Below, in pieces: positions 1 to 40,958 of a stretch of 43,318 bases of DNA (position 1 is the first letter of the stretch; each line of letters begins with the position of its first letter). Source of the stretch: Bacteroidia bacterium (GTDB taxonomy: Bacteria; Bacteroidota; Bacteroidia; UKL13-3). The DNA is taken from the NCBI GenBank assembly GCA_021740845.1, contig JAIOYZ010000030.1:1-43318 (forward strand), written 5' to 3'. The notes beneath the pieces were generated by a model. That model had not been told where the DNA came from and ran no database searches. It saw only the letters and a list, made by a program, of their open reading frames with translations. A program made the position numbers and the translations under genes.

Positions 1-115
1 TCAAAGAACTTTATTCTATTTTGTTTTCACCATCGCTGGTGTAGAATCTCTCAACTTTTTTCCCTCTCCAAATCTTCAATCCGCTTTCGCTTTTCGTCCT
101 TTCTTTAAGGGGATG
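1..115 (-). other. Transcribed leader, probably of an rRNA operon beyond the left edge
   Basis: Read on the minus strand, the sequence downstream of the proximal promoter runs about 105 nt without a credible ORF and ends at the window edge with AGTTCTTTGA. This resembles the boxA antitermination element that sits ahead of 16S rRNA in Bacteroidota (GTTCTTTGACA-like). Together with three stacked promoters, it suggests an rrn operon starting just off the left edge. The rRNA itself is not in the window, so this is an inference; a strongly expressed protein operon is the alternative. Confidence 0.5.
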
Positions 116-146
116 CAAAGGTAATGTTTTTAATTTAATGTGCAAA
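116..146 (-). promoter_or_regulatory. Proximal tandem promoter P1 (Bacteroidota sigma-A type)
   Basis: On the minus strand TTTG (146-143) is followed after exactly 19 nt by TACCTTTG (123-116), a full match to the Bacteroidota consensus TTTG-N19-TAnnTTTG. The start region just downstream, CATCCCCTTAAAGAAAGGA, closely resembles the one after the distal promoter P3. Confidence 0.8.
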
Positions 147-232
147 TTTTATTTTGACTTAACTTATCCACATTCAAAACACTCTCCAACTTCACTTTCT
201 CCCCTTCGCTACACCCTCTGAATTCGGGTTGG

Positions 233-263
233 CAAAGGTAAGATTGTTTATCTATTCTCCAAA
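233..263 (-). promoter_or_regulatory. Middle tandem promoter P2
   Basis: On the minus strand TTTG (263-260), 19 nt, then TACCTTTG (240-233): a full consensus match with the same -7 octamer as P1. It lies exactly 100 bp from P3 and 117 bp from P1 and points the same way. Confidence 0.78.
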
Positions 264-332
264 TGTTTTTTTTACTTTTTTAGAACTCTTTTCCCCTTTC
301 TCACTCACTCATCCTTTCTCTTAAGGGGGCTG

Positions 333-363
333 CAAAAGTAGAGAGATTTGCCACAGCTGCAAA
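333..363 (-). promoter_or_regulatory. Distal tandem promoter P3
   Basis: On the minus strand TTTG (363-360), 19 nt, then TACTTTTG (340-333). The start region GCCCCCTTAAGAGAAAGGA nearly repeats that of P1, suggesting duplication of promoter plus start site. A GGTTTGAACC motif (rc of 372-381) sits about nine bases upstream of the -33 box. Confidence 0.75.
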
Positions 364-779
364 TTTATTTTGGTTCAAACCATCTAAAATGCTGTATTAG
401 AGAATAAAATATTTTTAAGAGCATAAGAATTTAGCCTTAAAACACCCTATTTACTGCACTTTTCGCTATTTCACCTCCTTAAAATTACTTCTATTTTGGT
501 TCAAAATAATCTAAAATACTTTTCATTATAGATACAAAAGCATTGCTTAAGGATAAAACAGCCTTAAAAAATCAATGTTATATCTATATAGGCATATATA
601 ATAATAGCGTAAAGTGGCATGTGAATAAGACGAAATACATTTTATACAATAGTAAACTCAGGAAAATAAACTTCATTTAACCTTGCATACTTATTAAAGC
701 TAGCGAATATTATTCTTAGTTAAGATACAAAAACCATATAATAGATACTCCTTATATATATGTGTAATGAATAGAAAGG
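364..779. other. Gene-free AT-rich spacer with a 27/28-bp direct repeat
   Basis: No ORF or RNA gene is recognisable. The spacer separates the leftward tandem promoters from the rightward paaN promoter. It holds two copies of an element beginning ATTTTGGTTCAAA and ending ATCTAAAAT(G/A)CT, at 367-393 and 493-520, differing by one inserted base and a few substitutions. The rest is AT-rich with TATATA tracts around 580-600 and 755-765. Confidence 0.6.
372..381. repeat. Iterated motif GGTTCAAACC (intergenic copy)
   Basis: Exact copy of the 10-mer found 16 times in this window: plus-strand GGTTCAAACC starts at 372, 12128, 14777, 17732, 29733, 32361 and 42906; GGTTTGAACC starts at 8032, 10925, 12981, 17239, 25242, 27295, 28635, 30374 and 40851. 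This copy lies within the spacer direct repeat, upstream of promoter P3. Confidence 0.85.
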
Positions 780-828: not shown

Positions 829-2490
829 ATGAACACCAGTAACACATTATTTGAAAAACACCGCGCTACATTGGATGCAGCTTTGCATGCCTTAACCGTT
901 AGAAATTATTATTCACCTTATCCAGAAAATCCAAGGGCTTATGCAGAAGATGCAGATGCTATGGCAAAGAATTGGATAAGTGCATGCATGAATAATAACT
1001 ATACCTCTTTGGATCAAACCGAAGCCAATGGATGGATTGGAGAAGAAGTTTCACCTTTCTTACAAGTTGGAATTGGTGTTAAATACCCAGCATTTACTCC
1101 TGAAACATTATTAAAGAACGGTATTGTTGCCCAAGCAGCTTGGAGTAAAACAAGCACCGAACAAAGAACAGGTATATTGATTGAAGCTTTGGATAGAATT
1201 AAATCTCGCTTTTTTGATATTGCTTATGCAACCATGCATACCACAGGACAAAGTTATATGATGAGTTTTCAAGCAAGTGGTCCACATGCCAACGACCGTG
1301 CTTTGGAAGCGGTGGTAATGGGATACAAAGAATTGACCTCTGTGCCTGAGAAAGCAGAATGGATTAAGAACCTTGGAAAGTTTGATTTGAAAATGAACAA
1401 AACTTGGAAGGCAATTCCTAAAGGAATTTCTTTGGTAATTGGTTGTTCTACTTTTCCTGTTTGGAATACTGTTCCTGGTTTATTTGCCTCTTTGATTACT
1501 GGTAATGCTACTATTGTTAAGCCACATCCTAAAGCGATATTAGCTATTGCTATAGTTGTAGAAGAATTGCAAAAAGTTATGGTAGAAAATGGATTGCCAA
1601 AACAGGTTGTTCAATTGGGAGTTGATACATTAGAAAATCCTATCACCAAAGTATTGGCAGAAAACCCAATGGTTAAGATGGTAGATTTTACTGGTGGTAG
1701 CGAGTTTGGAAACTATATTGAAAGTTTGCCAAAAACAACCTTTACAGAAAAAGCTGGTGTTAACTCTATAATTTTAGATTCTGCTAAAGATTTAAAAGCT
1801 GTTTTAGGAAATATTGCTTTTAGCACAAGTTTGTATAGCGGACAAATGTGTACCGCACCACAAAATATCTTTGTTAGCAAACATGGTGTACAAACTGAAG
1901 AAGGAATTGTTGCCTACGAAGATGTGGTAAAAGGAATTGCTGCCGCTATAACGGGGTTGGTTGATAATCCAAAAGCTGGTCCTGGAACATTAGGTGCCAT
2001 ACAAGCCGAAGCTACTTTTGCAAGAGTTCAAGAGGCAAAGAACTTGGGCGGTAATTTGATATTGGATAGCAAGTCTATAGTGAATGAAGAGTTTAAGGAT
2101 GCTAGAATTGCCACGCCTGTTGTAATTGAATTAGAAAAAAATCAATCTGATATTTTTAACAGAGAATGTTTTGGTCCGGTTGTGTTTGTAATAAAAACTG
2201 ATGGATTAGCAGATTCTTTGGCCTTGGCGGAAGCTTTGGTTAAAGAAAAAGGAGCACTAACTTGTGGCGCTTATACTACAGATGAAACTACAAAAGCAAT
2301 GATTGCAGAAACTATGAACAATGCCTTTGTACCAGTTAGCTTTAATTTTACAGGAGCAGGATTTATCAATTCTCATGCTGCCTTTAGTGATTTCCATCTA
2401 ACTGGAGGAAACCCTGCAGGTAATGCCAGCTTTGCAAATTCTGAATTTGTAAGCAAGCGTTTTGTTTGGGTTGGAAATAGAGAAATGTAG
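829..2490 (+). CDS. paaN: PaaN-type aldehyde dehydrogenase family protein
   Basis: Cytosolic NAD(P)-dependent aldehyde dehydrogenase superfamily protein of 553 residues, matching in length and N-terminal pattern (HRATLDAALHAL, YYSPYPENPRAY) the family annotated as phenylacetic acid degradation protein PaaN. The likely catalytic nucleophile is Cys341 in YSGQMCTAPQN, and the likely general base is Glu307 in TEKAGVNS; FTGGSEFGN fits the cofactor-binding region. In phenylacetate catabolism, PaaN/PaaZ proteins oxidise the semialdehyde from ring opening, but no paaA-K genes are nearby, so the substrate here is unproven. It is monocistronic: a consensus promoter at 780-810 and a hairpin terminator right after the stop. 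Superfamily assignment is firm, the PaaN subgroup fairly confident, the pathway role inferred. Confidence 0.8.
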   Translation: MNTSNTLFEKHRATLDAALHALTVRNYYSPYPENPRAYAEDADAMAKNWISACMNNNYTSLDQTEANGWIGEEVSPFLQVGIGVKYPAFTPETLLKNGIVAQAAWSKTSTEQRTGILIEALDRIKSRFFDIAYATMHTTGQSYMMSFQASGPHANDRALEAVVMGYKELTSVPEKAEWIKNLGKFDLKMNKTWKAIPKGISLVIGCSTFPVWNTVPGLFASLITGNATIVKPHPKAILAIAIVVEELQKVMVENGLPKQVVQLGVDTLENPITKVLAENPMVKMVDFTGGSEFGNYIESLPKTTFTEKAGVNSIILDSAKDLKAVLGNIAFSTSLYSGQMCTAPQNIFVSKHGVQTEEGIVAYEDVVKGIAAAITGLVDNPKAGPGTLGAIQAEATFARVQEAKNLGGNLILDSKSIVNEEFKDARIATPVVIELEKNQSDIFNRECFGPVVFVIKTDGLADSLALAEALVKEKGALTCGAYTTDETTKAMIAETMNNAFVPVSFNFTGAGFINSHAAFSDFHLTGGNPAGNASFANSEFVSKRFVWVGNREM

Positions 2491-13665: not shown

Positions 13666-13672
13666 ATCTTTT

Positions 13673-14069
13673 GCAAAACAATAAGCCGGGTTCTGTATTG
13701 TTTTAGGCTCAAAGCCCTCCACTCGACTATCATTTATCTGCCCCAATTATTGCTAATTGGATCTAGCAGCCTACCCGCAAGAAAAACAACTCGAGGTTGT
13801 TGGTGCTAAGCTAACACCCTTTTATTTCTTGCCTATTTGGCCTTGCAACGCATAAGGTTTACCATGCAATGTTTATCACTAAACACCCGGTGGGCTCTTA
13901 CCCCGCCTTTTCACCTTTTCCTTTTTGTTTTGCAACAAAGAGGTAGTTTATTTTCTGTGGCACTGTCTGTTCCCCAATTTGCATCAGAGACCTTCCCGTT
14001 AGGAAGTATGCTGCTTAAGTTGCCCGGACTTTCCTCTCGATGTTACCACCTAGCGATAGTCTATTTTGC
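13673..14069 (-). ncRNA. rnpB: RNase P RNA (bacterial class A)
   Basis: Catalytic RNA that removes 5' leaders from precursor tRNA. On the minus strand it carries the conserved GAGGAAAGTCCGGGC near the 5' end (around 14025-14042), GGGTAAGAGCCCACCGG in the centre, and the 3' hallmark ACAGAACCCGGCTTAT (around 13681-13696). GCAAAA at about 14069 can pair with TTTTGC ending at 13673 to form helix P1, which sets the ends at about 397 nt. It lies 45 bp downstream of parC with its own -7 element and is followed by a strong terminator. Ends are good to a few bases. Confidence 0.93.
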
Positions 14070-14073
14070 GAGG

Positions 14074-22982: not shown

Positions 22983-25900
22983 TTACTCCTTTATTAACTT
23001 TACTCTGACTACTTTTTCTTGCTTTGCAATCTCAATGAAATAAAATCCTGCTGCCAAATCAGCGAGGTTCAATCTGGTGGTTTCACTAATAACTAGGATT
23101 GGTTCAAACAGAACCTTACCAGAAATAGAACGTATAGAAATGCTTGAACCAATAAGTTGTTTTGAACCAACTAGGTTTAATTCATTTTTAGTTGGATTGG
23201 GAAATATTTGAATGTTTAGCTCTTCTAAAAAATTATGAATTCCTACACTCGTAATGGAATAACAATCGCTGGTATCTATGCAGTTATTTTGGGTAACAAT
23301 AACAGCATACTTGCCATTTTTTGTAGCTGTAAACAAATTATCATTTTCACCTGGCAAAATTGGATTTGATTGATTATCGCAATCTATCCATTGATAACTG
23401 GCATTTGTTGCATTTGATTTTAAAGTGGTTGAATTTACAATACTAACACCTGTTTCAATTTGATTAAGGGTAAGTTCAAGTTTTATAATTGAATCGCATG
23501 CAACTGAATTGTTTATTTTCTGGAAATAGGTACCCGATTTTTCATACTTTACTCCATTTAAACTATAGGATTTACAGGCAGTTTCTGTAAGGGTTAAGCT
23601 ACTACTATTCTTAATATTTAGGTTTAAAAATACCATGGAATCACATCCTGTGGTTCGTTTTAATTTAACATTAAATAAACCACTTCCATAAAGGGTTGTT
23701 CCACCAATAACAAAAGAATCACAAGCGGTTATTTCTAGCATACTAAAAGTATCGGTATAAATAGTTAGATTTAAGGTTATGATAGAATCACAGCCTCCAA
23801 CATTGGTATACGTTTTTTGGTAGGTTCCAGAATTGGAATAGGTTTGCCCACCAAAATCAAAACTTGAACATGCGGTTTGATTTAAAAAACGGTAATTTTT
23901 AATACAATTGTTATTTATCCTTACTACCCTATTTCGCCCAATGGAATTATAGGAAGTAAAATTACCACCTACAATAATTTTTCCATCTGCTTGCAAGGAA
24001 ATAGATTCTGGAGAAGTCAAAAAACCTGTCCCAAAATTGATGGTATTATCTAAAGCCCCATCTGGTAATAGTCGTGCAATTCTTGATTGCGGCGAAGTAT
24101 TAAATTGGGTAAATGCTCCAATAACTAAAATAGAGCCGTCGGCTTGAACCAATATTTTATTGACAATTCCATTAAAGGAACTACTTCCTGGATAAAAAGA
24201 ATTATCAAAAGTTCCATCAGAATTTAACCTTGCGATTCTATTTCTAGAAACCCCATTTACAGAGGTGAAAATTCCTGCAATTACAACCTTTCCATCGGGT
24301 TGCAATCCAATAGAATTGATGCCACCAACAATGGTATTGTTAAAATTAAAACTAGAATCAATTAAACCATTTTCATTCAATCGAATAATTCGAGTATTCA
24401 GGTATTGATTGTTATATTCATTAAAATTTCCAGCAGCCAATATTTTTCCATCAGGTTGAATTAGTATGTCTTTCACCGCATTATCAAAGCCTGGGTTTAC
24501 CAAAAAGGTGGTATCCAAAATTCCATTGGGAAGTAAGCGTGCAATTTTCTTTTGCATTTTCCCTTGGTAACTACCAAAATCTCCCGCAATTAATATTCTA
24601 CCATCATCTAGAATTTCTATATCGTTAATTATTTCGTTGTAATTATTTGAAATAAAACTAGTATCCAAAATTCCATTTGGAAAAAGACGGATAATGCTTG
24701 CCACCTGCTTTCCATTGAAATTAATAAAATTTCCTCCTACCAAAATTTTTCCATCCTTTTGCAATGCCAGAACATTTGCATAATACCCCGAAAGTTCGTC
24801 GTTAAAACCCGTTCCAATTGAAAAGCTAGTATCTGGAGTTCCAGCCATGTTTAATCTTACAATAGATGCAAATTCTTTTCCATGAACCAATTTAAAATCA
24901 CCTACGCAAAGTATTTTTCCATCGGGTTGAACCAAAAAATTTCTTGGTATGGCATTAAAACCTGTTGGTTCGTTTAAGGCATAATCTGGTTTTCCATCTG
25001 GATAGGTTCGAACCAAATGATTTCTAGATTTGTTAGAGTAATTAGCAAAACTGCCAACAAATATTGTCCTGCCTAAGGAATCCATAACACTTTCATAAAC
25101 TGTAATAGTAGTTCCACCAGTTATTCCACTTCCAGATAAATAGGTAGTATCTAATCCAGCCAAAGAATCTAGGCGAGCCACTTTTCCGCAAGAAATACCT
25201 CTATATGAAACAAAGGAGCCACTAGCAATAATTTTTCCGTCGGTTTGAACCAATAAAGAATACACTCCACTCGAAAAACCGAGAGAGGGATCGAATGCCA
25301 AATCTAAATTGCCCAAAGAATCGATAAGGGCTATTTTATTTCGCGATACTCCTTGGAAATTTATAAATTCACCTCCCACCAAAATTTTTCCTTTTCTATA
25401 GGGTTTAAGCGCATAAACGGTGGTATTAAAAGCAAAACCTATTGCGAAGTTTGAATCCAAACTTCCATCAGAATTTATTCGAGCAATTCTTTCCTTTATT
25501 ATTCCATCGTAAAGTGTAAACCCACCTCCTATTACAATTTTAGAATCAGGTTGAACAAATGCATCGTAAATTGTTCCATTTGCACCTGAATTAAAATCTG
25601 TATCTACCGTTCCATTCGTATTAATTCTAACGATAAAATTCCTAGGTATTCCACGGTAGGATGTAAAATTTCCAAAGGCTAAGATTTTCCCATCAGGTAA
25701 TACAATTAGCTTCCTAACCAAACCATTAAAACCTGCTCCAATATTGAATGACAAATCCAAACTGCCATCTGTATTAAGTCGAACTATTCTATTTCGATTT
25801 GTTCCTCCATAAGAAGTAAAGTTACCTCCAACTATTATTTTACCATCTGCTTGCAAAGCAATGCACTGAACATAATCGCTAAAACCTGTACCCACCTTAA

Positions 25901-40939: not shown

Positions 40940-40947
40940 TATCTTTG
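40940..40947 (+). promoter_or_regulatory. -7 promoter element of the ABC-F gene
   Basis: TATCTTTG, 11 bp before the ATG at 40959; fits TAnnTTTG. No clear TTTG at -33. Confidence 0.5.
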
Positions 40948-40958
40948 CCACCCATTTT

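Follow-up and report, generated by a model that had tools for sequence, protein, structure and literature searches.

The rRNA output of a bacterium sets its growth rate, and the promoters of Bacteroidota differ from the textbook ones. Their sigma-ABfr promoter, with a TTTG box at -33 and a TAnnTTTG box at -7, was defined from 23 promoters of Bacteroides fragilis (PMC7366714), and sigma-ABfr boxes lie upstream of 81% of the primary starts in B. thetaiotaomicron (PMC7366714). In the passages of that paper on sigma-ABfr the spacer between the boxes is described as variable, and no rRNA promoter is described. For the rrn operons of E. coli, a boxB, a boxA and a boxC have been placed after promoter P2 and again before 23S (PMC10250234), and the presence of boxB there has been called puzzling (PMC10250234). 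In Mycobacterium kumamotonense two promoters precede rrnA and one precedes rrnB (PMC10218544). In our literature search, which left most subscription journals outside its scope, we found, among the titles examined, no report on rRNA promoters or boxA of Bacteroidota.

The locus described here compares with each of these systems in part. It has the same two boxes as the Bacteroides sigma-ABfr promoter (PMC7366714), whereas the spacer, given as variable in the passages cited, is dominated here by a length of 19 bp, and a C tract follows the -7 box. As far as the cited passages on the E. coli rrn leader go, the two leaders are alike in having tandem promoters, a hairpin directly 5' of boxA and then 16S, with hairpin and boxA found again before 23S in a relative. 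They differ in that other sigma boxes are used here, that there are up to about five promoters and that the hairpin abuts boxA; the comparison covers boxB and boxA. With mycobacterial rrn operons (promoters P1 and PCL1), as the source passages describe them, our leaders share the feature of several promoters per operon in a number that varies between operons; mycobacteria belong to a different phylum, and the comparison is one of promoter number.

A promoter array at a contig end

The window, by which we mean the whole stretch of DNA analysed (43,318 nucleotides), is contig C20 of a Bacteroidia bacterium (JAIOYZ010000030.1, assembly GCA_021740845.1; 66 contigs, 4.09 Mb), bases 1-43318. Since it is the whole of that contig, the contig itself stops at the left edge. 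Positions 1-363 overlap no open reading frame of 60 residues or longer. A sequence-only reading had placed three minus-strand promoters of the form TTTG, 19 bp, TAnnTTTG in this part, and coordinates, strand and spacing proved exact (Table 1): a TTTG near -33 and a TAnnTTTG at -7 occur three times at the same fixed distance. It had also given P1 and P3 a shared start. The C-rich start is indeed common to both, whereas a single fixed string is not: compared with the P1 start (CATCCCCTTAAAGAAAGGA), that of P3 (CAGCCCCCTTAAGAGAAAGGA) is longer by one base each in its C run and its A/G stretch. In P2, CCAACCCGAATTC stands in place of this string, and the TTAA..GGA stretch of P1 and P3 is absent. 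The AGTTCTTTGA noted at the left edge is correct and belongs to the conserved element listed as boxA.

Table 1. Coordinates of the leader features and of the first listed open reading frame in the window
Feature	Position	Strand	Description
boxA	1..12	-	AAAGTTCTTTGA, at contig end
boxB-like hairpin	13..47	-	outer stem ATTCTA 47-42 with TAGAAT 18-13; inner stem CACC 41-38 with GGTG 31-28
promoter P1	116..146	-	TTTG 146-143, 19 bp, -7 box TACCTTTG 123-116; C-rich start CATCCCC 115-109
promoter P2	233..263	-	TTTG 263-260, 19 bp, -7 box TACCTTTG 240-233; start region CCAACCC 232-226
promoter P3	333..363	-	-33 box TTTG 363-360, 19 bp, -7 box TACTTTTG 340-333; C-rich start 330-325
paaN	829..2490	+	TIGR02288 above cut-off; first listed open reading frame, divergent from leader; synteny marker, outside leader

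On both strands of the whole window the exact TTTG-N19-TAnnTTTG pattern occurs four times (shuffles: mean 0.67, with 1 of 100 reaching four), the fourth match lying outside the array at 23816; three matches on the same strand within 250 bases would be far above the shuffle rate. With the spacer freed to 16-22, nine sites were found in the whole window versus 5.3 expected, and 7 of 100 shuffles reached nine, which is not significant. The strength of the array therefore rests on its clustering and on the spacing across 30 leaders, that is, on conservation between genomes.

A second copy of the leader was found at the end of contig C4, with 98% identity across 351 bases, and both contigs stop at the same base, so that the sequence is both a repeat within the genome and located at contig ends, as is characteristic of rRNA operon leaders. 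P2 is identical in the two copies and P1 has one change in its spacer; the similarity runs to the middle of the P3 spacer and gives way to divergence beyond, the distal half of this spacer differing while its TTTG is kept. Searches for 16S and 23S gave no match anywhere in the assembly, and the same searches were positive in 9 and 10 of 14 control genomes, respectively. An rrn operon at the assembly break would explain the break points of C20 and C4, and we infer that these contig-end leaders, in an assembly devoid of rRNA matches, are the remnant of a collapsed rRNA operon. A comparison of the leader with a plasmid collection gave no match. Between leader and paaN, TTTTGGTTCAAA followed by TCTAAAAT occurs twice, at window positions 369-395 and 493-520.

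Relatives supply the missing side of the break. In same-genus leaders (G014, G016) the 16S 5' end lies about 83-84 bases past AGTTCTTTGA, and in those that are syntenic with the window 16S follows directly downstream. Rfam found 16S in 5 of 20 homologous loci scanned; in the other 15 no rRNA was found, and many of these end at a contig break. A search with the first 200 residues of paaN gave matches next to the leader in G016, G006 and G008 and a partial one in G002, and the gene end before the C4 copy, which we take to be a RuvB-like gene (ruvB), has matches in G014, G008 and G002. Because the flanking genes agree with those of relatives, there are at least two rrn loci, one linked to paaN (in the window) and one linked to ruvB (on C4). 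The probable rRNA operon origin proposed by the sequence-only reading is thus supported: the adjacent 16S it had suggested looking for is present in homologous leaders about 84 bases beyond AGTTCTTTGA, and a protein gene directly left of the window, which it had named as the contrary case, is not what same-genus relatives show. The minus strand of positions 1-363 almost certainly holds the promoters and leader of an rRNA operon, one of two or more in the genome, and comprises up to three promoters in tandem, followed by the boxB-like hairpin and boxA. Sequence comparison establishes the array and its conservation, the covarying hairpin, boxA and the 16S at the syntenic place in relatives. The rrn promoter array itself is an ordinary kind of thing.

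Among 30 distinct family leaders (17,765 nt), the strict pattern with spacers of 10-30 gave 44 matches: 31 with a spacer of 19, seven with 21, three with 20 and one each with 17, 18 and 25. Dinucleotide shuffles of these leaders gave about 0.09 matches per spacer length, with a maximum of one at spacer 19 in 200. From the 27 loci, which include one without the 16S start motif (G069), the duplicates G086b and G002x were dropped for the spacer count; 4 of 15 contig-end loci were kept (L005, L006, L009, L023), and the 11 without TTCTTTGA in their last 400 bases were left out. Where a family leader is long enough for a count, it has roughly one to five promoters. Within the genus, too, fewer than three can suffice: leader G014 on C3 has just one. 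For a class survey we drew 30 loci from 74 matching genomes (22 in the class, 8 outside) and accepted [CT]TTG with spacers of 18-21. At least two promoters were present in 14 of the 17 class-level loci having at least 400 nt upstream; outside the class, seven loci with 800 nt had none (five loci) or one (two loci). Tandem rrn promoter arrays are thus usual in the class. In one rrn leader (L014/L077, G031) promoter modules recur every ~93 bases, with spacers of 21 rather than 19 bp.

boxA and the boxB-like hairpin

A TCTTTGA element lies upstream of 16S in all 26 family leaders with a 16S start motif, 80-97 bases before GAGTTTGATC, and thus forms a conserved boxA between the last promoter and 16S, as expected of an rrn antitermination leader. 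The hairpin (boxB) 5' of boxA that belongs to such leaders is likewise present: all 28 distinct family leaders tested have, right next to boxA, an outer stem of 5 bp or more, G-U pairs included. The inner CACC/GGTG stem was identified by eye and only the outer stem entered the counts; G075 (too short) and the C4 stretch (identical to C20) were excluded from the hairpin tests.

Exchanging arms between leaders that differ in arm type gave stems of at least 5 bp in 21.6% of 634 pairings. Shuffling the upstream 48 nt in 1000 rounds gave a mean of 8.66 and a maximum of 16 of 28 leaders, and with one leader per 3' arm the stem was present in 11 of 11 (shuffles: mean 4.4, maximum 9). These two kinds of test redo the search for the best arm in the control and are independent of the MAFFT alignment. 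In that alignment the outer stem had a covariation score of 0.393 (0 of 500 shuffles; at most 0.151 when slid), and 28 cells were changed on both sides (0 of 500 shuffles). Two of the five covariation measures were weaker, namely pairs changed on both sides (22 of 500 shuffles) and further pair types (7 of 500); on these two, slid versions scored as high or higher (up to 6 pairs and 12 types). As the aligned fragments were cut at the best-pairing 5' arm, the covariation count leans towards structure; MAFFT also misplaced the 5' arm in several rows.

On this comparison the hairpin abutting boxA covaries in the family, in a boxB-boxA layout as in E. coli rrn. One of the two operons of G086 has a hairpin (by eye, 9 bases ahead) and TTCTTTGA between its tRNA genes and 23S as well. 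That compensatory changes have preserved a hairpin 5' of boxA in so distant a phylum makes some function likely.

The C-rich start of stable-RNA and translation promoters

In 67 distinct rrn promoters of the family, the base at +4, +5 and +6 after TTTG is C in 63, 67 and 66 cases, respectively. We called a start C-rich when at least three C occur among positions +3..+7 after TTTG; a stricter measure required CCC at +4..+6. By the first measure 66 of 67 family rrn promoters are C-rich, as are 31 of 34 distinct rrn promoters from 16 genomes in other families of the class. As a protein-gene control we took 98 TAnnTTTG sites from ~442 kb of the own genome, on contigs that are a non-random sample of it; 6 of these sites, which may include chance matches that are no promoters, are C-rich, and two have CCC at +4..+6. 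For 27 control sites that also have TTG 17-22 upstream (two of them before tRNAs) the count of CCC is zero.

tRNA genes were treated likewise in the own genome (G000) and in G086. From 67 matches we picked 53 tRNA heads by hand, leaving out four in rrn spacers and ten downstream in clusters. A TAnnTTTG lies within 150 bases of 36 of these heads and is absent from 17; among the 36 the start is C-rich in 28 (14 of 18 per genome), and 14 have the stricter CCC (4 of 18 in the own genome). The difference between tRNA and protein-gene sites in C-rich starts is pronounced (Fisher p ~4e-16). Three tRNA genes of G086 without TAnnTTTG within 150 bases (L191, L232, L243) have the palindrome CTCCCGATAGCTATCGGGAG, or most of it, upstream.

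A gene-blind search of the own genome found TANNTTTGCNNCCC 25 times versus three times for the reversed pattern. Four of the occurrences belong to rrn, four precede tRNAs (in one case a tRNA and then the trigger-factor gene), eight go with translation, five with other genes, and four lie inside open frames. The translation carriers are infA, rpsL, rpmB, pth, prfC, two ABC-F genes (one below the family cut-off) and a stretch with rpsI 474 bases on; the others are pyrG, ndk, glmM, a TonB-receptor-like gene and an HU-like gene assigned by eye, with no family match. G086 has 31 occurrences versus six reversed: six in rrn, ten before tRNAs, six inside opposite-strand reading frames and one without a locus, the remaining carriers being infA, rpsL, rplM and miaB, together with four others (glmM, an amidase-like gene and two not scanned). 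The C-rich start thus precedes rpsL, infA and glmM in both genomes. In the window, TATCTTTGCCACCC (40940-40953, plus strand) lies 11 bases ahead of an ABC-F ATPase gene and carries the C-rich start. At pyrG, which encodes CTP synthase (L115, G000 C3), the C-rich start is found 96 bases ahead of the start codon, and 20 bp separate TTTG from the -7 box.

At sequence level, these comparisons demonstrate that the tract exists, that in two genera it is concentrated at promoters for stable RNAs and translation, and that rRNA promoters from across the class carry it. In E. coli, a GC-rich discriminator separates the -10 box from the start in stringently controlled promoters, those of stable RNAs and of ribosomal proteins. 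The Bacteroidia promoters resemble these: for the same two kinds of gene, the bases from the -10/-7 box to the start are rich in G+C, and the distribution is that of such a discriminator, G+C-rich at stable-RNA starts and not at general promoters (rrn 66/67, tRNA 28/36, protein 6/98). They differ from it in that the C tract has a fixed place and runs over the start by published coordinates: the -7 box of Flavobacterium psychrophilum is given as -12 to -5 in the relevant passages of PMC9723704, which puts CCC on -1, +1 and +2, so that the tract spans the start site. Transcription may thus start within the C tract and the rRNA begin with C. Such a position suggests a stringent-type discriminator or CTP-dependent initiation, and by analogy with the GC-rich discriminator of E. 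coli stable-RNA promoters the tract would act in initiation.

Proposed working of the leader and rival readings

In the working we propose, RNA polymerase with the primary sigma factor of Bacteroidota would start at up to three tandem promoters, each made up of TTTG and TAnnTTTG 19 bp apart, then a C-rich start. RNA from them would traverse the boxB-like hairpin and boxA, the latter presumably binding NusB and S10 and loading the Nus antitermination complex, and transcription would continue into 16S ~84 bases beyond the contig edge. All three promoters probably fire, and the C-rich start may be the means by which growth signals, be it ppGpp, CTP or the two together, control the output.

Could the array serve something other than rRNA? 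It is extremely improbable that its target is a small RNA or protein gene beyond the left edge, with boxes that are chance AT-rich matches. The window itself has no rRNA, its sole Rfam match at gathering thresholds being RNase P RNA (bacterial class A, full length, 13666-14072, minus strand); however, 16S is there in syntenic relatives, and spacing and boxes are far above shuffles. It might also be that this is an rRNA leader with a single working promoter, for example P1, the others being relics of promoter-module duplication that are kept alike by gene conversion between the two operons. The 98% identity of the copies over 351 bases suggests homogenisation, and promoter number differs between operons and species. 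Yet the arrays preserve spacing and boxes at every position, not merely nearest 16S, and P3 retains its distal TTTG at a point where the sequences next to it in C20 and C4 have diverged; we consider a single working promoter unlikely.

Less probable still, in our judgement, is that the C-rich start matters as RNA and not in initiation, pairing with a GGG that follows it into a hairpin at the 5' end (CCCCTT..AAGGGG). For the promoter closest to boxA, stems are indeed longer than with a shuffled 3' part (4.96 versus 4.18 bp; 26 promoters, mean z -1.24), whereas the other 41 promoters are at chance (4.22 versus 4.13, mean z -0.34) with an equally constant C tract. Such a hairpin explains the tract poorly, because promoters not nearest boxA keep the tract without it. 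As a general function of the tract it was rejected by stem length, folding and shuffles, the signal being weak nearest boxA and at chance elsewhere. Returning to a role in initiation, we put forward tentatively, and with more doubt than confidence, that the Bacteroidia C tract is a start code for the translation machinery: promoters of rRNA, tRNA, ribosomal proteins and translation factors would start in CCC, pre-rRNA would begin with C, and ribosome synthesis would be tied to the CTP pool and/or ppGpp through an initiation element common to all of them. This C-rich element of the translation-machinery promoters is also present at the CTP synthase gene. Animal TOP messages start with C and are pyrimidine-rich, and the Bacteroidia C start is like them in outward form.

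In our literature search, with most subscription journals outside its scope, we found, among the titles examined, neither a covarying boxB-like hairpin in Bacteroidota nor a C-tract start common to the translation machinery, and these two extensions, the hairpin and the C-tract start, are worth the time of specialists. What the comparison offers for testing is concrete: rRNA, tRNA and ribosomal-protein promoters share a C tract where the start is predicted. Its presence at tRNA and ribosomal-protein promoters makes growth control in Bacteroidota testable.
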